Origin: Hydrogenophilaceae bacterium
Lineage (GTDB): Bacteria; Pseudomonadota; Gammaproteobacteria; Burkholderiales; Thiobacillaceae
Direction: 5' to 3'
NCBI GenBank assembly: GCA_013389055.1
Contig: JACAEC010000009.1
Span: 1-54,700, forward strand
Length of the DNA: 54,700 nt
The notes below the pieces were generated by a model. The model did not search any database. It was not told the origin of the DNA and was given only the letters and a program-made list of their open reading frames with translations. Positions within the stretch are counted from its first letter, which is position 1, and every line of letters begins with the position of its first letter. This document shows positions 36,191 to 45,881 of this stretch, piece by piece. A program made the position numbers and the translations under genes.

Positions 36191-36703
36191 TTATTTCGCC
36201 GGGCAGGCATCGTCGCCGGGCACCTTGCCGGGCAGCAGCAGGAAGGCCTCGAACGGGCCCATCACGCTCATGGCTTCCATCTTGGGGCCGGAGAACTGTA
36301 GCCGGCCGAACATCATGGCGCGCATCGGGCCGTATTCGCCGGCACCCATTTCCCGCCAGCGCTTGGTCTCGGCATGCATGACGTAGTCGACGGCGAGGTC
36401 CAGGTTGGCGGTTTGCACCTTGCCGCCGTAGGTGCAGATGGCCTTGCCGCCCTGCGGCTGGACCTTCATCTCCACCTTGGTCGCCTCGCCGCAGTCGGTG
36501 CGGTACATCTGCATGATCTTGTAGCCACGGCCCTTGTCGTTCTTGATCCACTTGTCGGCGAGTTCGTCGGTCAGGGTGGCGGTCTTGTTCCACTGCTGGC
36601 AGGCCTGGGCGGCCCACTCGGCGGACATCAGCGGGGCGGCGAGGGCGGCCGGGGCGGCCAGGATAAGACCGCTGGCGCACAGGGCGGTGAAAAGCTTTTG
36701 CAT
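36191..36703 (-). CDS. secreted SCP2-like (sterol-carrier-type) protein
   Basis: 170 residues from ATG 36703, which has GGAGGAG upstream and starts a signal peptide (MQKLFTALCASGLILAAPAALA). The mature part has two probable disulfide Cys pairs and ends MFGRLQFSGPKMEAMSVMGPFEAFLLLPGKV, which resembles the lipid-binding C-terminal part of SCP2 domains. Probably a periplasmic lipid- or quinone-binding protein. Its place beside an MCE lipid-transport operon on the same strand may be meaningful. Confidence 0.72.
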   Translation of the reverse strand: MQKLFTALCASGLILAAPAALAAPLMSAEWAAQACQQWNKTATLTDELADKWIKNDKGRGYKIMQMYRTDCGEATKVEMKVQPQGGKAICTYGGKVQTANLDLAVDYVMHAETKRWREMGAGEYGPMRAMMFGRLQFSGPKMEAMSVMGPFEAFLLLPGKVPGDDACPAK

Positions 36704-36801
36704 TGTGTACTCCTCCATCGAATAGGGTTGGGCATCGACTGCCCGCGGCTAGGGTAGTGTGAACGTACCACCCTGTAAAGCCCCTTTGCTTTGCAGGGTT
36801 C

Positions 36802-37596
36802 TCAGGGCCGTTGCGACTGGACGGGCAGAGCGGGTTTTCCGGAGAGCACAAGCTCGATCTGCCGCTTGAGTTTCGCCAGGGCGGCACCGTCGCCGGCGGC
36901 CTCGGCCCGCTGCGCCAGGACTTGTAGCCAGGCGAGCAGGGGCCGGCGCCAGCCTTGCTCGGAAGCAGTCTGGCTGGCCAGGGCCATGGTCTCCGGCATG
37001 ATCTCGCCCCGCTTCAACAGCAGGGCGCCGGCAATGAGTCGGGCCACCGGATCGGCTATGGCCTGGGCGGTGCGGTTGCGCTGGCCGGCATCCGTGGCCT
37101 TGGCCAGTTCGGCATAGTGGCCCGGCAGCAGGTCCGCATTCAGCCCTTGCCAATCGCCGGCCAGGAAGCGGGCATAGGCCACCTCTTCGGCCGAGGCGTC
37201 GGCCGCCAGCTTTTCATATTCGACGCAGGGCGCAAAATCGAGACTGGCGATGCGGGTCCCGCAGCGAATCAGTTCGGCGCGCGCCACCAAGTCGAGCCGG
37301 CCGGTGCGGGCCAGTTCGCCGCGAGCCTTGGCGAAGTTCAGTTCCGCCGTGCGGGAATCGCCCTCGAGCCAGCGTTGCTGATAGTTCTCCAACTGACCGA
37401 CGGCATTCATCTTCCAATCAGGCGGCGGCGAACCGGCGCAGGCGACAAGCAAGAAAAGAGTGCCGAGTAGCGAGTACCGAGTGGCTCGGATCAAGTACCG
37501 AGTGACGAGTGCCGAGTACCGAGAGGCCCACCAAACAGGCATAGTGGGTATCTCATTTCTCGCTACTCGGTACTCGTGACTCGTCACAGATTTCAT
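36802..37596 (-). CDS. lipoprotein of the MCE operon with repeat-expanded signal region
   Basis: 264 residues from ATG 37596, which overlaps the stop of the MCE gene as ATGA. The lipobox LLVACAGS is clear, preceded by the hydrophobic run LLGTLFLLVA. The mature domain is helical (TAELNFAKARGELARTGRLDLVARAELIRCG; AAGDGAALAKLKRQIELVLSG) and matches no family I know; it is not the usual ABC auxiliary lipoprotein. Residues between the start and the lipobox (SHEYRVARNE, SRYSALVTRYLIRATRYS) are encoded by a GAGT/CGAG repeat array, so the signal peptide has an abnormally long N-region. ATG 37542 is an alternative start that still lies in the array. Confidence 0.72.
   Translation of the reverse strand: MKSVTSHEYRVARNEIPTMPVWWASRYSALVTRYLIRATRYSLLGTLFLLVACAGSPPPDWKMNAVGQLENYQQRWLEGDSRTAELNFAKARGELARTGRLDLVARAELIRCGTRIASLDFAPCVEYEKLAADASAEEVAYARFLAGDWQGLNADLLPGHYAELAKATDAGQRNRTAQAIADPVARLIAGALLLKRGEIMPETMALASQTASEQGWRRPLLAWLQVLAQRAEAAGDGAALAKLKRQIELVLSGKPALPVQSQRP
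37459..37590. repeat. GAGTACC/CGAGT-type short-repeat array forming an imperfect inverted repeat
   Basis: The first block (37459-37523) repeats units such as TGCCGAGTAGCGAGTACCGAGT and AAGTACCGAGTGACGAGT; the second (37559-37588) is the inverted form CGCTACTCGGTACTCGTGACTCG. The two blocks are separated by about 35 bases without repeats. The array lies inside the coding region of the lipoprotein gene and stays in frame. Similar ACTCG/CGAGT clusters are known as dispersed intergenic repeats in proteobacteria, but they are usually outside genes. Confidence 0.8.
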
Positions 37597-38528
37597 GGCA
37601 GCTTCACCTCCACCTCGCGGGCGAAGGGCCATTTGCGGTTGATCTCGTTGATCAGGTGATTGACCTTGCGCACGCTGTCGTCGATCTCGGCCCGCAAGAG
37701 GGTCAGGTCGGCGCTGGCCTCCTGGGCGTTGGCCAGGATGGCGTCGGCCTTCTTCAGGCTGTCCCGGGTCTGCAGCAGGATGGCGTTGACGTTGGCCAGG
37801 GCCTGGTCGGTCTGATCCATGACCCCGTTCTGGCCGAAGACCCGCTGATCCATCTTCAGCGAGAGGCCGTTGAGCGAGGTGAGCAGCTTGTCGGCCTGAT
37901 CGACCGCATCGACCACCTTCTTCGCCTTGTCGGCGCTGCCGAGCACGCCCTCGAGCATGCCATATTGCCCGGCCATGCGGCCGGTCACGGTGTTCACGTG
38001 GGTGAGGCTCTGGTCCAGGTCGGAGCCTTCATGGGTCATGCGCTCCAGATTGTCGAGCAGGTTCTTGGCGCGGGTGATCAAGAGCGGCAGTTCTTCGGTC
38101 ACGTCGCCGGTATACAGCGGCGGCACCGCATCGGCGGGCAGGGGTGGGGCACCGAGGTCGGTGCTGAAGACCCGGATATTGGCGCTGCCGACCAGGGATT
38201 TTTGCAGGGTGAACACGCTGGTCGTGCGCAGCCAGCGCAAATGCTTGGTCGGCACTTCCACTTCGATCCGGCCCTGGCCCTGCTCGGTCAGGGTGATGCG
38301 CTTGACTTGGCCGATCGGGAAGCCGGAGAAGTTGAGCGGCATGCCGATACTGACGTTGCTGACGTCCTCGGCCACCAGGGTGAGGGTGCGGGTCGATTCG
38401 AACAGGCCGCGGGCGAACAGGGTATAGACGAAGAAGCCGACGGCGAGGAACACGGTGATGCCGACCAGCAGGCTGACCTTGAGGCCCAGGTGCTTGATCA
38501 AATGGGTGGGTAGAGAGGGGCGTTCCAT
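37593..38528 (-). CDS. MCE/MlaD-family substrate-binding protein
   Basis: 311 residues. One N-terminal membrane helix (VSLLVGITVFLAVGFFVYTLFARG) is followed by an MCE domain (about 45-125: VSNVSIGMPLNFSGFPIGQVKRITL, SANIRVF) and a long helical tail with heptad character. It would be an inner-membrane-anchored ring that moves lipids across the periplasm with the permease encoded upstream. Single-MCE architecture resembles MlaD. Its start overlaps the degenerate ATPase gene by 31 bases and its stop overlaps the lipoprotein gene. Confidence 0.9.
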   Translation of the reverse strand: MERPSLPTHLIKHLGLKVSLLVGITVFLAVGFFVYTLFARGLFESTRTLTLVAEDVSNVSIGMPLNFSGFPIGQVKRITLTEQGQGRIEVEVPTKHLRWLRTTSVFTLQKSLVGSANIRVFSTDLGAPPLPADAVPPLYTGDVTEELPLLITRAKNLLDNLERMTHEGSDLDQSLTHVNTVTGRMAGQYGMLEGVLGSADKAKKVVDAVDQADKLLTSLNGLSLKMDQRVFGQNGVMDQTDQALANVNAILLQTRDSLKKADAILANAQEASADLTLLRAEIDDSVRKVNHLINEINRKWPFAREVEVKLP

Positions 38529-38956
38529 CGATAGTCCACGATCCAGAGCGTATTGATCTCGTCTTCCAGTTTAGTCAGGCAATCGGCCAGAAAGGTCGGA
38601 TAGGGCAGGTCCGGCAACAGCAGGCCGGGGCGCTCGATCACGATTATAGAGGGCCGGCCGATCAATGCCCGCAGCAGCTTGGCGACGAAGCGCTGCTCAT
38701 AGTTCAGATCGGGGTCTCGATGGTGGGCGCAGCCGGTTTGGGCCAGCCGTTCCAGCAGGCCCCACGCCTGCTCGCTAGCCTGTTGGGGCGTTGCGTTGTC
38801 ACGATATTGCGGCACCAGGGCGATGTTTTCCAAGACCGAAAGGTTGGCGCGCAGGGGCAGTTCCGCCGAGATCTGCACGGCGTCGGGATGGGCCTCCAGC
38901 CAGGCGCGCCGTTCGGCGTCGCTGTCGACCCAGGCTACAGATAAGTGATCGCTAAT
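38498..38956 (-). CDS. degenerate ABC ATPase-like protein of the MCE operon (no Walker A)
   Basis: About 152 residues. The middle resembles the part of MlaF-type ATPases after the Q-loop (LPLRANLSVLENIALVPQ), the signature region is altered to LNYEQRFVAKLLRALIG instead of LSGG.., and Walker B reads SIIVIERPG, losing the Asp-Glu pair. No P-loop exists anywhere in the frame. There is no ATG, GTG or TTG near the expected start: upstream codons only repeat the permease gene in another frame. ATT 38956 has GAGGT 7 bases upstream and gives MSDHLSVAWVDS; GTG further in (DAVQIS) would cut the protein shorter. It overlaps both neighbours. Confidence 0.65.
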   Translation of the reverse strand: MSDHLSVAWVDSDAERRAWLEAHPDAVQISAELPLRANLSVLENIALVPQYRDNATPQQASEQAWGLLERLAQTGCAHHRDPDLNYEQRFVAKLLRALIGRPSIIVIERPGLLLPDLPYPTFLADCLTKLEDEINTLWIVDYRWNAPLYPPI

Positions 38957-39747
38957 GATCCGACCTCGATCAGCATCAGGGCGAAGAACAGCCGTACCAT
39001 GCCTGTGTGCACGGCGATCGGCGCGAAGAACAGTTTGTGCGGGGCCTCGAGGCCGGCGGCGATGGGGATCACCGTGACCGCCAGGCCGAACATCAGGCAC
39101 TTGAGCCAGAGGCCGAGCACCTGGAGTGGCGAGAAAACCTGGCCCAGGATTTGGCTGAAGGCGGCCAAGCCGCTGGTTTCCAGGCCATACAGGCTAACAT
39201 AGGCGATCAGCATGGCGATCAGGCTGACCACTGCGGTCAGGGCCAGCACCGAGAGCACGCCGCCGATCACCCGGGGCAGAAATTCCAGGCGCAGGGCGTC
39301 GACGCCGACATCGGCCAGGGCCTGGATCTCGTTGTTGATGTTCATCAGCGCGATCTCGGCATTGATCGCCGCACCCGAGCGCAAGGCGACGAATAGGGCA
39401 GTCACCAGGGGCAGCAACTCGATCACCAGGAAGCGCAACACGACCTCGAGCGCCAAATCGCCCAGGCCGTAATTCCGTGCCGCCGTCACGGCGATCTGGA
39501 TCAGGATCAGGCTGAGCAGGGCGGCGAACAGGCTGAAGCTGCCGAGGATTTGCCAGGCGGTGAAATAGATCTGTTTTTCCACCACGGTGCGGGTGGCACT
39601 GTTGTAGAGGCGAGGCGAAAAGATGCCGGCCAGCGCGATGCCGCCGAAGCTCAGCATACGTGCCATGGGGCTGAAGCGGGCGATCAGGATGTCGCCACTT
39701 CGGGTGAGCAGTTTGATGAGCCAGCGCATGCTGCGATCATAATGCAT
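38935..39747 (-). CDS. MlaE-family ABC transporter permease
   Basis: About 270 residues. The MlaE signature is present: IYFTAWQILGSFSLFAALLSLILIQIAV, LPLVTALFVALRSGAAINAEIALM, NNEIQALADVGVDAL, LPRVIGGVLSVLALTAVVSLIAM, and a Gly-rich last helix. It forms the inner-membrane channel of a lipid transporter with the MCE protein. ATG 39747 (MHYDRSMRW) and ATG 39729 (MRWLIKLL) are both possible; neither has a good ribosome binding site. The track extension to 40569 runs through the divergent SH3 gene and is spurious. Confidence 0.9.
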   Translation of the reverse strand: MHYDRSMRWLIKLLTRSGDILIARFSPMARMLSFGGIALAGIFSPRLYNSATRTVVEKQIYFTAWQILGSFSLFAALLSLILIQIAVTAARNYGLGDLALEVVLRFLVIELLPLVTALFVALRSGAAINAEIALMNINNEIQALADVGVDALRLEFLPRVIGGVLSVLALTAVVSLIAMLIAYVSLYGLETSGLAAFSQILGQVFSPLQVLGLWLKCLMFGLAVTVIPIAAGLEAPHKLFFAPIAVHTGMVRLFFALMLIEVGSLAITYL

Positions 39748-39800
39748 CGGTATGGTGCGATGGGTATCATTGTCCAGTGAGCCAAAAGAGAGAATTCGCC

Positions 39801-40340
39801 ATGAAGATATTCCGCAGTGGGCTTGCGCTGCTTTTGCTGGTCGCGCTGCCGGCTTGGGCGGCACCCGGGGTGATGCTGCGCGACGATACCTTGCGCAACG
39901 CGCCCTCGGCGACGGCGGCGGCGGTCGGTAGCGTGACCAAGGGCCAAGCGGTCGAGGTGCTCGGCCGCCAAAGCGGCTGGAGCCGGGTACAGGCCCAGGG
40001 CAAGACCGGCTGGGTACGCCTGCTTTCGGTGCGCGGCGGCGCGGTGGCGCAGACCGATGTCGGCGGCGAACTGGCCGGTGTGCTCGCCTTGGGCGGGACC
40101 CGGCGCGACCCGGGCAAGGTGGTGGCGGTGGCCGGGGTACGCGGCCTGAGCGAGGAGGAGTTGAAGCAGGCGCGTTACGACGCCCGGCAACTGGAGCGCC
40201 TGGAAGGTTATGCCGTGACGCTGCCCGAGGCGAACCGTTTCGCCGCCGAGGCCGGCCTGGCCCGGCGTGAAGTCGCCTACCTGCCGGCGCCGCAAAGCGC
40301 ATCGGGCAGCGGCGAGACCTGGGGAGGGAACCAGCCATGA
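39801..40340 (+). CDS. secreted SH3-domain protein
   Basis: 179 residues from ATG 39801, which begins a signal peptide (MKIFRSGLALLLLVALPAWAAP). A bacterial SH3 domain follows (about 22-80: LRNAPSATAAAVGSVTKGQAVEVL, GWSRVQAQGKTGWVRLLSV). The rest is a helical tail (LSEEELKQARYDARQLERLEGYAV) without a recognised fold. Probably periplasmic, perhaps contacting peptidoglycan. Its stop overlaps the start of the M48 protease gene as ATGA, implying a shared mRNA and linked function. Confidence 0.87.
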   Translation: MKIFRSGLALLLLVALPAWAAPGVMLRDDTLRNAPSATAAAVGSVTKGQAVEVLGRQSGWSRVQAQGKTGWVRLLSVRGGAVAQTDVGGELAGVLALGGTRRDPGKVVAVAGVRGLSEEELKQARYDARQLERLEGYAVTLPEANRFAAEAGLARREVAYLPAPQSASGSGETWGGNQP

Positions 40341-41218
40341 AGATGCGTCTGATTCTCCTTGCCTGCCTGCTGTCCGGCAGCCTCGCCCAGGCGGCCGATT
40401 TCGGCGGCCTGCTGCGCGGCGTGCTCAATGGCGGCGTACAGATCGGCCCGCAGCAGGAGACGCCGCAGGACAACAACGGCGACGCCGTAGGCAACCTGGT
40501 CGGCGCCCTGCTCAGTGGCAACACCTCGCCCGAGCAAGAACGCCTGATCGGCCAGCAAATCTCCGGCAACCTCTTGGGCGCGGCGCCGCTGGTGGGCGAC
40601 GCGGCGCTGCAGCGCTACGTCAACCGGGTCGGCCGCTGGGTGGCGAGCACCAGTGAACGGCCGGACCTGGCCTGGCGCTTCGGCGTGGTCGAGAGCGAGG
40701 ACATCAACGCCTTCGCCGCACCCGGCGGTTATGTCTTCGTCACCAAGGGTCTGTACAAGAAATTGCAGAACGAGGCGGAATTGGCTGCCGTGCTCGGCCA
40801 CGAGATCGGCCATGTCGTGCGCCAGCATCACCTCAAGCTCTTGCAGCAGTCGCAGATGGTGGCGGCCGTCGGTGGCCTGCTCGGCCAGCGGCTGGGCAAC
40901 AAGAACCAGCTTATCCAGAACCTGATCGGCAACGGCGCCGAGATCGTCGCCCGCTCGCTCGACAAGGATGCCGAGTACGAGGCCGATCGCATCGGCATGG
41001 TGCTGAGCGCGCGCGCCGGCTACGACCCCTATGCCTTGCCTGCGGTGCTGCAGGAGATCGGCCATGTGCCGGCCCAGGACAGCCGCATGGCCCTGCTCTA
41101 CAAGACCCATCCGCATCCCGAGGACCGGCTGGCCCGCTTGGGCGAGGCGGTGGAGTCGGCCGAGGCCGGCCTGCCGGAGGGGAACTTGGTGAGTAACCGC
41201 TTCTACCGCCTCAAATGA
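40337..41218 (+). CDS. periplasmic M48-family metalloprotease
   Basis: 293 residues. Signal peptide MKMRLILLACLLSGSLAQAA. The peptidase domain has AFAAPGGYVFVTKGL, the zinc motif LGHEIGHVVRQHH and the third ligand in EYEADRIGMVL, ending with THPHPEDRLARLGEA. It resembles BepA/LoiP-type envelope quality-control proteases but lacks TPR repeats. ATGA overlaps on both sides tie it to the SH3 gene and the CHASE2 cyclase gene. Confidence 0.92.
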   Translation: MKMRLILLACLLSGSLAQAADFGGLLRGVLNGGVQIGPQQETPQDNNGDAVGNLVGALLSGNTSPEQERLIGQQISGNLLGAAPLVGDAALQRYVNRVGRWVASTSERPDLAWRFGVVESEDINAFAAPGGYVFVTKGLYKKLQNEAELAAVLGHEIGHVVRQHHLKLLQQSQMVAAVGGLLGQRLGNKNQLIQNLIGNGAEIVARSLDKDAEYEADRIGMVLSARAGYDPYALPAVLQEIGHVPAQDSRMALLYKTHPHPEDRLARLGEAVESAEAGLPEGNLVSNRFYRLK

Positions 41219-43431
41219 CCCAGCGCAGCCGCCGATTTCTCGGGCAATTGGCGGTCAGCCTGGTTTTTCTGTTGATCCTGCTGGGCCATACCGGCGGCCT
41301 CTACAGCCTGTATTTCATCGAGAAATTCGATGCCGCCCTCTACGACCTGAAGCTGCGGCTGTTCCGCGAGCAGGGCGTCGACGACCGGGTGGTCATCGTC
41401 GACATCGACGAGAAATCGCTGCGCGAGATCGGCCGCTGGCCTTGGCCGCGGCTGCAAACGGCCAAGCTGACCGAGAACCTGTTCGATCAATACGGCGCGG
41501 CGGCGGTCGGTTTCGACATCGTCTTCGCCGAGCCCGACCAGAGCTCGGGCCTGCCTGTCCTCCAAGGCCTAGCGCGCGGGCCTCTGGCCGGAGAGGCCGG
41601 TTTTGCCCGAATGCTCGAGCGGGTCGCCCCCGGCCTCGATTACGACGCCCGCCTGGCCCATGCCCTGGCCAAGGGCCCGGTGGTGCTGGGTTATTACTTC
41701 GGCTTCGGTTCTGCGGCCGGCCGGGTCGGCGACTTGCCGCAGCCGATCCTGCCCTGTGGCCGACTCGATGGGCATGGGGTGCGGCTGCTTGTCGCGAGCG
41801 GCTACGGCGCCAACCTGCCGGCCTTGCAGGCCAAGGCGTTCGACGCCGGTTTCTTCAATGTCCAGCCCGATTTCGATGGGGTGATCCGCCGGCAGCCACT
41901 GCTGATCGAGCATCAGGGCCAGTGTTATGGCGCCTTGGCCCTGGCACTGGTGCGGGCCGGCTTGGGCCTGGGCCCGGCCGATGTCCTGGCGGCGGGCCAG
42001 GCCGGCGGGTTGGCGACCAGCCCGGCCGCCCTGTCATTCGATGGTGTCATGGCGCCGATGGATGAAAACGGCATGGTGCTGGTGCCCTACCGTACAGATC
42101 GGGCCTATCGTTACATTTCAGCCACCGATGTCATCCACGGTCGGGTGCCGGCGGCCGAACTGGAGGGCCGGCTGGTGCTGATCGGGGCGACCGCGCCCGG
42201 CATCATGGACCTGCGGGTCACCCCGACCGACAAGGCTTTCCCCGGCGTGGAGATCCACGCCAATGTGATCTCCGGCCTGCTCGACGGCAGCATCAAGTGG
42301 GAGCCGGCTCAGGCCCGGCGCTGGAACCTCGGCGCGGTGGTGCTGTTCGGCTTGCTGCTGGCGTTGTGGCTACCCTTCGCGGCCCCACTGTGGGCGGCGG
42401 CCGCAGTCGCCGGCTTGGTGATGCTGGCGATCGGTGCCGATCTCTACGCCTGGTCGGCCCTGCATCTTAGCCTGGCACCGGCCAGCCTGCTGCTCGCCCT
42501 GGCCGGTCTTTTCATCCTCAACATGAGCTACGGCTTCTTCGTCGAGGCCCGGGCCAAGCTGCAGATCACCCGGCTGTTCGGCCAGTATGTGCCACCGGAA
42601 CTGGTCGAGGAGATGGCCAGGGACCCGGCCCGCTACAGCCTGCGTGGCCAGTCGCGGGAGATGACCGTGCTGTTCTCCGACATCCGCGATTTCACCAGCA
42701 TCTCCGAAGGCCTGGAGGCGGCCGAATTGGCCGACATGCTCAACGCCTATCTATCGACCATGACCCGTGTGGTCCAAGAGCATCGCGGCACCATCGACAA
42801 ATACATCGGCGATGCGATCATGGCCTTCTGGGGTGCGCCCTTGAGCAATGACCGGCATGCCCGCGATGGCGTGCTCACGGCCCTGGCCATGCAGCAGGTG
42901 CTGGCGGAATTGAACCCGCAGTTGCAGGCGAAGGGTTGGCCGGCGGTGAAGATCGGCGTCGGCGTCAATACCGGGCGCATGAGCGTCGGCAATATGGGCT
43001 CGAGCTTCCGCATGGCCTATACGGTCATGGCCGATGCGGTGAATCTGGCCTCGCGCCTGGAAGGGCTGACCAAACAGTATGGGGTGGGGGTGCTCTGTGG
43101 CGAGGCGACCCGGGCGGCCTGCCCGGACATGGCCTTCCGCCTGATCGACCGGGTGCGGGTGAAAGGCAAGGCGCAGCCGGTGGCGATCTATGAGCCGCTC
43201 GGTCTCAAGGCCGAACTGTCCGAGGCGGCCCAGCGTGCGGCCGAGCGTTTCGAGGCGGCCCTGGCGGATTATCAGGCCCAACGCTGGGATGCTGCTGCAT
43301 CGGCGTTGCAGGCGTTGAATGCGGAAACACCGGGCAAGCTTTACACGGTATATTTAGAACGGATTGAACACTTCCGCCAACAGCCGCCGGCAGCAGATTG
43401 GGATGGCGTGTTTACCTACACAACCAAATAG
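41215..43431 (+). CDS. CHASE2-domain adenylate cyclase (class III)
   Basis: 738 residues. An N-terminal helix leads to a periplasmic CHASE2 sensor (about 35-340; VVIVDIDEKSLREIGRWPWPR, GFDIVFAEPD, LIGATAPGIMDL, GVEIHANVI), three helices (about 360-435), then a class III cyclase domain. The metal Asp residues are in LFSDIRDFTSISE and KYIGDAIMAFWGAP; the Lys of IDKYIGD and the Asp of MADAVNLASRLEG are the adenine-specifying pair, and N-x3-R is present. A helical tail follows. It likely makes cAMP in response to an envelope signal; the ligand is unknown. ATG overlaps the protease stop. Confidence 0.93.
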   Translation: MTQRSRRFLGQLAVSLVFLLILLGHTGGLYSLYFIEKFDAALYDLKLRLFREQGVDDRVVIVDIDEKSLREIGRWPWPRLQTAKLTENLFDQYGAAAVGFDIVFAEPDQSSGLPVLQGLARGPLAGEAGFARMLERVAPGLDYDARLAHALAKGPVVLGYYFGFGSAAGRVGDLPQPILPCGRLDGHGVRLLVASGYGANLPALQAKAFDAGFFNVQPDFDGVIRRQPLLIEHQGQCYGALALALVRAGLGLGPADVLAAGQAGGLATSPAALSFDGVMAPMDENGMVLVPYRTDRAYRYISATDVIHGRVPAAELEGRLVLIGATAPGIMDLRVTPTDKAFPGVEIHANVISGLLDGSIKWEPAQARRWNLGAVVLFGLLLALWLPFAAPLWAAAAVAGLVMLAIGADLYAWSALHLSLAPASLLLALAGLFILNMSYGFFVEARAKLQITRLFGQYVPPELVEEMARDPARYSLRGQSREMTVLFSDIRDFTSISEGLEAAELADMLNAYLSTMTRVVQEHRGTIDKYIGDAIMAFWGAPLSNDRHARDGVLTALAMQQVLAELNPQLQAKGWPAVKIGVGVNTGRMSVGNMGSSFRMAYTVMADAVNLASRLEGLTKQYGVGVLCGEATRAACPDMAFRLIDRVRVKGKAQPVAIYEPLGLKAELSEAAQRAAERFEAALADYQAQRWDAAASALQALNAETPGKLYTVYLERIEHFRQQPPAADWDGVFTYTTK

Positions 43432-43463
43432 GCTCCAAGGGGCGGGAGCAAGGAGACAGACGA

Positions 43464-44228
43464 ATGCGGATACGGGTCTTGGGTTGCAACGGGGGTATCG
43501 GCGATGGCCGCCACACCACCTCGTTCCTCATCGACGAGGACATCCTGCTCGATGCCGGCAGCGGCGTGACCCGGCTGGCTCTGGAGGCCCTGGAGAAGAT
43601 CGATCACATCTTTCTCACCCATGCCCATCTCGACCATATCCTGGCCATGCCGCCCATGCTCGACAGCGTCATCGGCCGGCGCGAGCGGCCGGTTACCCTG
43701 CATGCCATTCCCGAGGTGCTGGAGGTATTGAAAGAGCACTTGTTCAACTGGCAGATCTGGCCCGACTTCAATCGGATTCCCAGCAAAGAGGCGCCGATCC
43801 TGATCTATTCGCCGATCGCAGTAGGCCAGACAGTGCGCATGGGGGCGCGGGAGATCACGCCCATCCCGGCCAATCACGTGGTCCCGGCCGTGGGCTATCA
43901 CCTGCGCGGCGGCAAGGGCAGCCTGATCTTTTCGGGCGATACCTGCGGCCACGACGCCCTCTGGAACATCGCCGCAGAGGTCGGCGATCTCAAGCACCTG
44001 ATCGTGGAGTGTTCCTTCCCGAATTCCATGCGCGAGATCGCCGATGCCTCCAAGCATTATTGTCCGGCCACGCTGAGTGCCGATCTCGCCCGCCTGAAGT
44101 TGGGCGTGCCGATTTGGATAACGCACATGAAGCCGGGCAGCGAGGTGGACATCATCGTCGAGCTCGACGAGTTGGTGAACAGCCGGCTGGTGCAGACCCT
44201 GCGCGAAGGGCACCTGTTCGAAATCTAG
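43464..44228 (+). CDS. class II cyclic-nucleotide phosphodiesterase (metallo-beta-lactamase fold)
   Basis: 254 residues from ATG 43464, preceded by AAGGAGAC; the track start at 43398 overlaps the cyclase. THAHLDHILAMPPML matches the HxHLDH motif of class II 3',5'-cyclic-nucleotide phosphodiesterases (yeast PDE1, Vibrio CpdP), with PANHVVPAVGYHL, IFSGDTCGHDALW, VECSFPN and WITHMKPG completing the metal site. Placement 32 bases after an adenylate cyclase strongly supports hydrolysis of cAMP. A different MBL hydrolase activity cannot be excluded. No signal peptide, so cytoplasmic. Confidence 0.88.
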   Translation: MRIRVLGCNGGIGDGRHTTSFLIDEDILLDAGSGVTRLALEALEKIDHIFLTHAHLDHILAMPPMLDSVIGRRERPVTLHAIPEVLEVLKEHLFNWQIWPDFNRIPSKEAPILIYSPIAVGQTVRMGAREITPIPANHVVPAVGYHLRGGKGSLIFSGDTCGHDALWNIAAEVGDLKHLIVECSFPNSMREIADASKHYCPATLSADLARLKLGVPIWITHMKPGSEVDIIVELDELVNSRLVQTLREGHLFEI

Positions 44229-44248: not shown

Positions 44249-44280
44249 AAAAAAGGAGAGGCGATGCCTCTCCTTTTTTT
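44249..44280. terminator. bidirectional intrinsic terminator between the phosphodiesterase and fccB
   Basis: GGAGAGGC-gat-GCCTCTCC with a run of A residues before and seven T residues after. It closes both the plus-strand cyclase operon and the minus-strand fccA-fccB operon. Confidence 0.93.
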
Positions 44281-44297: not shown

Positions 44298-45563
44298 TTA
44301 GAGCGCCAGGGTATCCGCCCAGATGTTCTTCGCCCAGGACTCCATATAGTGCCACTCGAGTTCGCTCTCCTCCTTGGAGACGCCGGTCGCGCCTTTGGGG
44401 GTTTCCCACTTGCCTTCCGGATTAAGCCGCCAGACCGCTGCCACGTGAATGGCGCTGTTGGACGAAGTGGCGGAGAAGCAGGTGTTGGTGATCACCGGTG
44501 TGGACTCGGCTTGATTGCCGTTGAGCAGCTCGACGATGGCAGCGGCGCAGACCTTGCCATAGTTGTTGGCCATCGAGCCGGATTTCGGCGTGGGGGCCGA
44601 AATCGAATCGCCGATGATGTGTACGTTGGGGGCGACGTTGGACTCCAGGGTGCGGAAATCGACTTTGCACCAGTTGTCGTTGTCGTTGCGTACACCCGCC
44701 ATGGCGGTGATGCCGTGGGCGCGCATCGGTGGCACCACGTTGAGCACGTCGGCCTTGACGTCCTCGACATCGAGCGACAGGGTGCGTTTGCCGGCATCGA
44801 GGCGCACCGGCTTGCTGTTCGGCCGATACTCGATCATGCCCTCGTAGTGCTTCTTCCAGGCCGCCAGGAACAGTCCCTTCTTCGATACGATGTCGGCATT
44901 GCTGTCGAGCACCAGAATCTTGGACTTCGGCTTCTTGGCCTTGAAGTAGTTGGCTACCATGCTGACCCGCTCATAGGGTCCAGGCGGGCAGCGGTAGGGC
45001 ATGCCCGGGATGGACAGGGCATAAACGCCGCCGTCGGGCATGGCTTGCAGCTGCTTGCGCAGGGTCGCGGTCTGCGGGCCGGCCTTCCAGGCGTGCATGA
45101 TGGTCTTTTGGGCCTTGGCGTCGTAGCCCTCGATCAGGTCGAAGCGCAGATCGATGCCGCCGGACAGCACCAGACGGTCGTAGGCGAAGGTCTTGCCGCT
45201 CTTGCACTTGACCATGCGCTTGGCGGTATCGAAGCCGACTACCTCGTCTTTCACCAGCTTGACGCCAGCCTTCTTCAGGCCGTTGTAGCTGAAGGTGAGG
45301 TCATCCAGCTTGTTGATGCCGCCGAGCACGGTGTTGGAGAAGGGGCAGGAAACGAACTTGTCGTTCATCTCGATCAGGGTGACATCGATCTTCGGATCCC
45401 ACAGCTTGAGGTAACGGGCGCAGGTGGCGCCGCCGAAACCACCACCGACCACCACGACCTTGGGCTTGGCACCGGCGATGGCAAAACTGCTCAACGAACC
45501 GAGGCTGGCAGCACCGACTGCGCCGGCGGAAACCTTCAGAAAATCACGGCGATTGATTGCCAT
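44298..45563 (-). CDS. fccB: flavocytochrome c sulfide dehydrogenase, flavoprotein subunit
   Basis: 421 residues. A Tat signal (INRRDFLKVSAGAVGAASLG) exports it to the periplasm. The FAD site is VVVVGGGFGGATCARYLK, the redox-active cysteines are in SCPFSNTVLGG and PYRCPPGPYERVSMV, and the second FAD motif is VHIIGDSISA. FccB oxidises sulfide to sulfane sulfur or polysulfide and passes electrons to the cytochrome subunit encoded just upstream (18-base gap). The C-terminal LEWHYMESWAKNIWADT is typical. All family features are intact. Confidence 0.96.
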   Translation of the reverse strand: MAINRRDFLKVSAGAVGAASLGSLSSFAIAGAKPKVVVVGGGFGGATCARYLKLWDPKIDVTLIEMNDKFVSCPFSNTVLGGINKLDDLTFSYNGLKKAGVKLVKDEVVGFDTAKRMVKCKSGKTFAYDRLVLSGGIDLRFDLIEGYDAKAQKTIMHAWKAGPQTATLRKQLQAMPDGGVYALSIPGMPYRCPPGPYERVSMVANYFKAKKPKSKILVLDSNADIVSKKGLFLAAWKKHYEGMIEYRPNSKPVRLDAGKRTLSLDVEDVKADVLNVVPPMRAHGITAMAGVRNDNDNWCKVDFRTLESNVAPNVHIIGDSISAPTPKSGSMANNYGKVCAAAIVELLNGNQAESTPVITNTCFSATSSNSAIHVAAVWRLNPEGKWETPKGATGVSKEESELEWHYMESWAKNIWADTLAL

Positions 45564-45581
45564 AGTGTTGTCTCCTTTTGC

Positions 45582-45881
45582 TTATTTGACGGCGGCGAAC
45601 CAGGCTGCCAGTTTTTCGATTTCCTCATCGGTATAGCCGAGGGCGTGCTTTTGCATCACCACAGAGGGGCGGGTACCCGACTGGAAGTCCTTCATCTGCT
45701 GGACGAAGTAGCCTTTTTCCAGCCCCGCGAGCGAGGGGATGGCGCCGCGGCTCTTCCCTTCCGGGCCGTGGCAATAGGCGCAGTTCGCGGCCATGGTACG
45801 CGTGCGGCTATCAGCCTGTGCTGCGCTGACTACGCCGAGCGCACCGACAAAGAGCAAGGTATAGGCAAGTGTGTGTTTCAT
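45582..45881 (-). CDS. fccA: monoheme cytochrome c subunit of sulfide dehydrogenase
   Basis: 99 residues with signal peptide (MKHTLAYTLLFVGALGVVSAAQA) and one heme site CAYCH; the distal Met is probably in RPSVVMQKHALGYTDEEI. A monoheme small subunit as in Chlorobium-type flavocytochrome c, rather than the diheme form of Allochromatium. It accepts electrons from FccB and hands them to the respiratory chain. GGAGGAG lies just before ATG 45881. A terminator-like hairpin in the leader is described separately. Confidence 0.92.
   Translation of the reverse strand: MKHTLAYTLLFVGALGVVSAAQADSRTRTMAANCAYCHGPEGKSRGAIPSLAGLEKGYFVQQMKDFQSGTRPSVVMQKHALGYTDEEIEKLAAWFAAVK

Follow-up and report, generated by a model that had tools for sequence, protein, structure and literature searches.

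The input signal of CHASE2 domains is not known (PMC5192318), and these domains occur widely on both cyclases and kinases. In Sinorhizobium meliloti, NsrA works with the CHASE2 adenylate cyclases CyaD1, CyaD2 and CyaK in the Clr pathway (PMC13001267, PMC7529298), in which the cyclases need an envelope protein, the outer-membrane beta-barrel NsrA, for input and deliver cAMP to the Crp-family read-out Clr. In Burkholderia contaminans, the BiofilmReg operon (PMC5192318) encodes LysM-FecR, an exported protein predicted to bind the wall, together with a CHASE2 sensor that is a histidine kinase with a response regulator. For magnetotactic bacteria, the mtxA report (PMC4439547) places mtxA, a gene for a signal-peptide protein, before a CHASE2 adenylate cyclase gene.

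We analyzed a 54,700-nucleotide stretch of contig JACAEC010000009.1 from a Hydrogenophilaceae bacterium of the family Thiobacillaceae (hereafter the window), in which four co-directional plus-strand genes at 39801-44228 encode an SH3-domain protein, an M48 metalloprotease, a CHASE2 adenylate cyclase and a phosphodiesterase (PDE) (Table 1). This operon resembles the NsrA pathway in coupling a predicted cAMP-producing CHASE2 cyclase to candidate envelope partners, but those partners are an SH3-M48 pair, no outer-membrane beta-barrel partner of the NsrA type is present in the window operon, and no clear equivalent of Clr was found. It shares with BiofilmReg a predicted wall-binding exported protein encoded beside a CHASE2 sensor, whereas BiofilmReg is without protease, cyclase or PDE. 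With the mtxA cluster it shares the order of signal-peptide protein and then CHASE2 cyclase; that source, in the portion used, describes MtxA as having no known homologs and does not name M48 or PDE genes. Our search of the open-access literature returned no description of SH3-M48, or of M48, SH3 or metalloprotease, together with CHASE2. The SH3-M48 pair is a concrete, testable candidate for CHASE2 input, and if that role is real, envelope proteolysis would be connected to a cyclic-nucleotide second messenger.

Table 1. Features of the four-gene operon and its borders, in window coordinates.
Feature	Coordinates	Strand	Length	Basis
SH3-domain exported protein	39801..40340	+	179 aa	Pfam SH3_3 3e-12
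M48 metalloprotease, exported	40337..41218	+	293 aa	Pfam PF01435 Peptidase_M48 2e-34
CHASE2 receptor adenylate cyclase	41215..43431	+	738 aa	Pfam CHASE2 2.5e-61, Guanylate_cyc 8e-21
Metallo-beta-lactamase-fold PDE, atypical class II-like	43464..44228	+	254 aa	Lactamase_B_2 8e-18, PDEase_II 9e-13
Intrinsic terminator	44249..44279	+		Hairpin with T run; RNA fold -20.2 kcal/mol, z -4.69
Divergent intergenic region, operon versus MCE/Mla-like transport operon	39730..39800	.	71 nt	ORFs

The four ORFs are clustered on one strand as the preliminary description had reported, with the first three joined by 4-nt ATGA overlaps (SH3/M48 at 40337-40340, M48/cyclase at 41215-41218) and the PDE beginning 32 nt after the cyclase stop. 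The terminator lies directly beyond the PDE, which is therefore most likely the final gene of the operon; a consensus promoter scan yielded nothing useful, and its pattern also missed this terminator. A plasmid search with the SH3 protein gave no match, and a mobile origin was rejected. Both neighbors lie on the minus strand: an MCE/Mla-like transport operon (36191-39729; permease, ATPase and MlaD-like protein) and, convergently, a pair read from sequence as a flavocytochrome c sulfide dehydrogenase flavoprotein-like protein and a small cytochrome c (44298-45881), a putative assignment in line with a sulfur-oxidizing host. The genome assembly comprises 2.28 Mb in 221 contigs.

In the SH3 protein, a signal peptide is followed by a single SH3 domain of bacterial type (aa 31-72) and a conserved C-terminal tail (aa ~105-165) carrying the motif VVAVAGxRGLxEEeL. 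Invariant residues occur in both the domain and the tail across the family alignment, and the AF2 model has pLDDT >90 for the SH3 part and low confidence for the tail. The protein scores 28.6 bits against the SH3-and-anchor (YgiM-like) model TIGR04211, below the equivalog cut-off of 65. Sec-type signal peptides were read from the SH3 and M48 sequences, and hydrophobic N-termini appear in most alignment rows, agreeing with the earlier proposal that both proteins are secreted. The accompanying label of a wall-binding domain holds as far as an SH3 domain is present, but SH3 domains are no proof of wall binding.

The M48 protein carries HEIGH at aa 155-159 (HExxH) and a downstream Glu213, and in the alignment free-standing M48 relatives retain the protease motif. 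It shares an exported M48 fold and HExxH with BepA and LoiP, but scores far below the curated cut-offs for both (123 bits versus 570 for BepA, NF052400; 53 bits versus 365 for LoiP, NF052399), is too short for the BepA model (293 aa versus 483 positions) and is tied to SH3 and CHASE2 genes.

In the cyclase, a first transmembrane helix precedes a periplasmic CHASE2 domain (aa 21-381), hydrophobic segments (~372-443) and a class III catalytic domain (aa 480-654), with Pfam scores of 208 bits for PF05226 and 75 bits for PF00211. The two metal-binding Asp residues (D489, D533), the adenine-specifying Lys (K529), Thr at the second specificity position (T603) and the transition-state Asn and Arg (N610, R614) are all present and invariant across 21 relatives. 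Pfam and residues therefore agree with the original reading of a periplasmic CHASE2 sensor fused to an adenine-specific cyclase, and cAMP production is predicted.

The PDE was originally described as matching cyclic-nucleotide phosphodiesterases, and the Pfam matches stand, although the atypical class II family (PF12706, 65 bits) scores above the classical one (PF02112, 48 bits over 65 of 340 positions). As described for Rv1339 (PMC9293780), atypical class II PDEs are marked by a PF12706 domain and the motif [T/S]HXHXDH, and the window PDE carries the fitting motif THAHLDH at aa 52-58. Its AF2 model (pLDDT 91) has a metallo-beta-lactamase (MBL) fold with Foldseek neighbors YhfI (TMq 0.77-0.79), RNase Z (0.73-0.78) and yeast PDE1 (0.80), and yeast PDE1 (4ojv) is also its PDB sequence match. 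Like Rv1339, YhfI and Corynebacterium glutamicum CpdA (PMC9293780), the protein thus combines MBL fold, PF12706 and motif, but it is remote from them in sequence and, at 43 bits, far under the cut-off of 400 for the NCBIfam cyclic nucleotide-degrading PDE model (NF041851). By Pfam and motif it fits among the atypical class II PDEs, with a putative cyclic-nucleotide substrate.

Judging by their names, the relatives Thiobacillus thioparus (L085), T. denitrificans (L127) and Parasulfuritortus cantonensis (L079) put the window in GTDB's Thiobacillaceae. Of 117 genomes of this family, 107 have SH3, 105 have the PDE and 111 have a cyclase homolog. Nine of the ten SH3-less genomes were also without PDE, but some of these assemblies are incomplete, and joint absence carries little weight because neighboring genes are lost at once when a single contig is missing. 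In fetched regions, the order SH3-M48-cyclase-PDE is intact in most genera and most loci examined; in genera g4 and g8 the cyclase-PDE pair is separated from SH3-M48, on a different contig or region. Most Thiobacillaceae loci, and those of family f35, have an MCE/Mla operon (MlaE and MlaD homologs) next to SH3. We considered this transport operon as a part of the module and rejected it as lineage synteny, since it is found mainly in Thiobacillaceae and f35 and is missing where CHASE2-SH3-M48 persists.

Genus g7 has an operon expanded between M48 and cyclase (L047 2384-15246, L048 4018-8791, L066 9317-14174, L052 and L051). The insertions comprise a TPR-CHAT protease, an SH3-caspase fusion, a GAF-HD-GYP protein, SH3-M48 fusions with broken HExxH, and two-partner-secretion genes for ShlB and a TPS adhesin with a C-terminal caspase domain. 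A 413-aa beta-barrel-like protein with no Pfam family occurs in the expanded g7 loci only.

Outside the family, SH3 profile searches were positive in 90 of 300 sampled genomes of the order (40 of 134 genera) and in 28 of 274 of the class, from which we fetched 60 order-level loci and 20 loci from outside the order. M48 directly follows SH3 in all 80 (60/60 and 20/20). Defining adjacency as same strand and within about 1.6 kb, a CHASE2 gene adjoins SH3-M48 at 50 of 60 order-level and 9 of 20 class-level loci, as raw counts from sampled genomes with no phylogenetic correction; SH3-M48 pairs without a nearby CHASE2 gene make up the other 10 and 11. At order level the CHASE2 gene lies upstream (CHASE2-SH3-M48) in 47 of 50 loci and downstream, as in the window, in L180, L189 and L191. 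Flanking genes vary by lineage and were read from sequence as, for example, ahcY, mdh, an epimerase or a pepP-like gene. Pfam supported CHASE2 in all eight adjacent proteins tested, and 16 of the 50 order-level partners contain no recognizable cyclase domain, so that the constant partner of SH3-M48 is the CHASE2 sensor and not cAMP.

Adjacent CHASE2 proteins at L161-L169, L182, L184-L187, L206 and L212 end in a C-terminal region of ~150 aa that had no Pfam match in the three tested; this region is possibly a degenerate or novel output domain. Where a cyclase adjoins SH3-M48 outside the family, it usually belongs to a different subfamily from the window's. A FastTree phylogeny of 95 cyclases, a fast method of which only the coarse split is trustworthy, separates shorter (about 610 aa) from longer (about 740 aa) CHASE2-cyclases by long branches. 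SH3-M48 neighbors occur in both subfamilies. Within the longer one, to which the window's cyclase belongs, they turn up at no fewer than two additional, separate points.

The cyclase-PDE pair has a distribution of its own. Among 40 PDE loci from other families, a CHASE2 cyclase lies beside the PDE in 28 and SH3-M48 in one. The earlier proposal that production and destruction of cAMP are encoded together thus gains independent adjacency in other families, as a prediction for both enzymes. Co-occurrence of all four genes is kept through Thiobacillaceae but splits outside it into SH3-M48 and cyclase-PDE pairs. Finding cyclase and PDE generally without SH3 and M48 had been named as grounds against the module, and this is partly what we observed: at 1 in 40 PDE loci outside the family, the four-gene set is not universal, and we rejected it as such. 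The single exception (L268) contains a shorter-subfamily CHASE2-cyclase, SH3, M48 and PDE in a different order, and the same four functions were apparently brought together there independently. At two loci from other Burkholderiales (L278 2-3726, L280 2-3483), genes named by sequence reading as a CHASE2-Ser/Thr kinase, a PP2C-like phosphatase and an FHA protein precede cyclase-PDE, which suggests a kinase/cAMP operon.

Because the SH3 and M48 genes travel with CHASE2 sensors in many bacteria and in several orders, they are good candidates for CHASE2 input. The preliminary description had suggested that one of them gates the sensor, and a functional tie is supported by recurrent adjacency, in several orders and to different CHASE2 proteins, and by SH3-M48 fusions. 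Envelope stress as the stimulus and cleavage as the gating step are hypotheses. Its term cAMP module suits the cyclase-PDE pair of this operon but is too narrow for SH3-M48, about a third of whose CHASE2 partners outside the family are without a cyclase domain. In our best-supported reading, to which we give about even chances, SH3-M48 is an accessory unit in the periplasm that is dedicated to CHASE2 receptors, and in this operon it is combined with a pair that would make and break cAMP. The genes, their catalytic residues, the layout of the operon and the recurring genomic linkage are shown, with the CHASE2 receptors that have envelope partners as precedents; physical contact, which side controls the other, the stimulus and the activities of the enzymes are inferred. 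Weighing against this reading are the SH3-M48 pairs that have no CHASE2 gene close by, the cyclase-less CHASE2 partners, the separated loci of g4 and g8, the fused M48 copies that have lost the zinc motif, and the low-confidence model of the SH3 tail. The SH3 protein would dock on an envelope component, such as the wall, a misfolded protein or a partner protein, and its conserved tail would contact M48, CHASE2 or both. M48 would then alter the state of CHASE2, either through binding or through cleavage of CHASE2, of the SH3 protein or of an inhibitor; the CHASE2 state would set cytoplasmic cAMP synthesis by the cyclase, and the MBL-fold PDE would remove cAMP and reset the signal.

The main rival to an accessory unit is that SH3 and M48 are output and not input: they would perform BepA- or LoiP-like envelope maintenance, co-tuned with or by the CHASE2 signal and making no contact with the receptor. 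The envelope proteases BepA and LoiP are the relatives to which the M48 scores point, co-transcription would account for the linkage, and SH3-M48 pairs without CHASE2 exist; yet an expression regulator has no need to remain next to its target when the genes are rearranged again and again with varied CHASE2 proteins, some of them cyclase-less, and we consider this explanation unlikely. The fusions also weigh against it. Several g7 genomes encode an extra SH3-M48 fusion protein upstream of the cyclase, which ties the two predicted functions together, and in these fusions REIAH or REIAR stands in place of the zinc motif, with an intact M48 retained further upstream. Loss of the zinc ligand in the fused M48 suggests that binding, not cutting, can be the selected role.

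SH3-M48 stays with CHASE2 receptors despite rearrangement, changes of output and gene fusion. In a wider version of the accessory-unit interpretation, SH3-M48 may serve CHASE2 receptors generally and interchangeably as an input cassette in the periplasm: a complex of protease and SH3 protein would sense the state of the envelope and switch whichever output the CHASE2 protein has, a cyclase or another domain, and M48 proteins that have lost the zinc motif would work purely as adaptors. This extension is tentative, and such a cassette, if real, would give CHASE2 a mechanism.

It is improbable that the main role of the cyclase is to sense inorganic carbon inside the cell, with CHASE2, SH3 and M48 only tuning or localizing it. 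Its invariant K529/T603 pair is that of class IIIb adenylate cyclases, as in the bicarbonate-responsive enzymes, its best PDB relatives include CyaB 3r5g and 6fht as well as other class III cyclases, and members of the family are sulfur-oxidizing chemolithotrophs, for which CO2 matters; retention of SH3-M48 by non-cyclase CHASE2 proteins is nevertheless left unexplained. Least probable of all is that the genes are neighbors only by common descent and for convenience of operon layout, and are not tied functionally, since the divergent MCE/Mla operon, kept beside SH3 within Thiobacillaceae, does indicate that some synteny is lineage-wide, but outside the family MCE and the other flanks change while CHASE2-SH3-M48 persists, in different orders.

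Turning from input to read-out, an HTH_Crp_2 protein was present in 60 of 61 family genomes and was not found in the window's own assembly (94.9% complete); given its presence in the family, this absence may be an assembly gap. The only HTH_Crp_2 (Crp/Fnr) protein of a complete genome from the same genus (G001, L292) reads GEAVTFLDRPYPLSA, which lacks the Arg found in the cAMP pocket of E. coli CRP, and a classical CRP is unsupported as the read-out in this genus. The window's genome also encodes cyclic-nucleotide-binding domains that stand alone and carry an R-T-A motif (L220 1333-1884, L221 1-204) and a protein joining such a domain to rhodanese (among L219, L220 and L221), all of which might be cAMP effectors. 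A second CHASE2-cyclase in this genome (L065 4057-6291, G000:C92) stands without SH3, M48 or PDE. Downstream of its ortholog in G001 (L064 1968-7895) lie genes for a response regulator, a beta-barrel-like protein and a glycosyltransferase, a possible exopolysaccharide locus.
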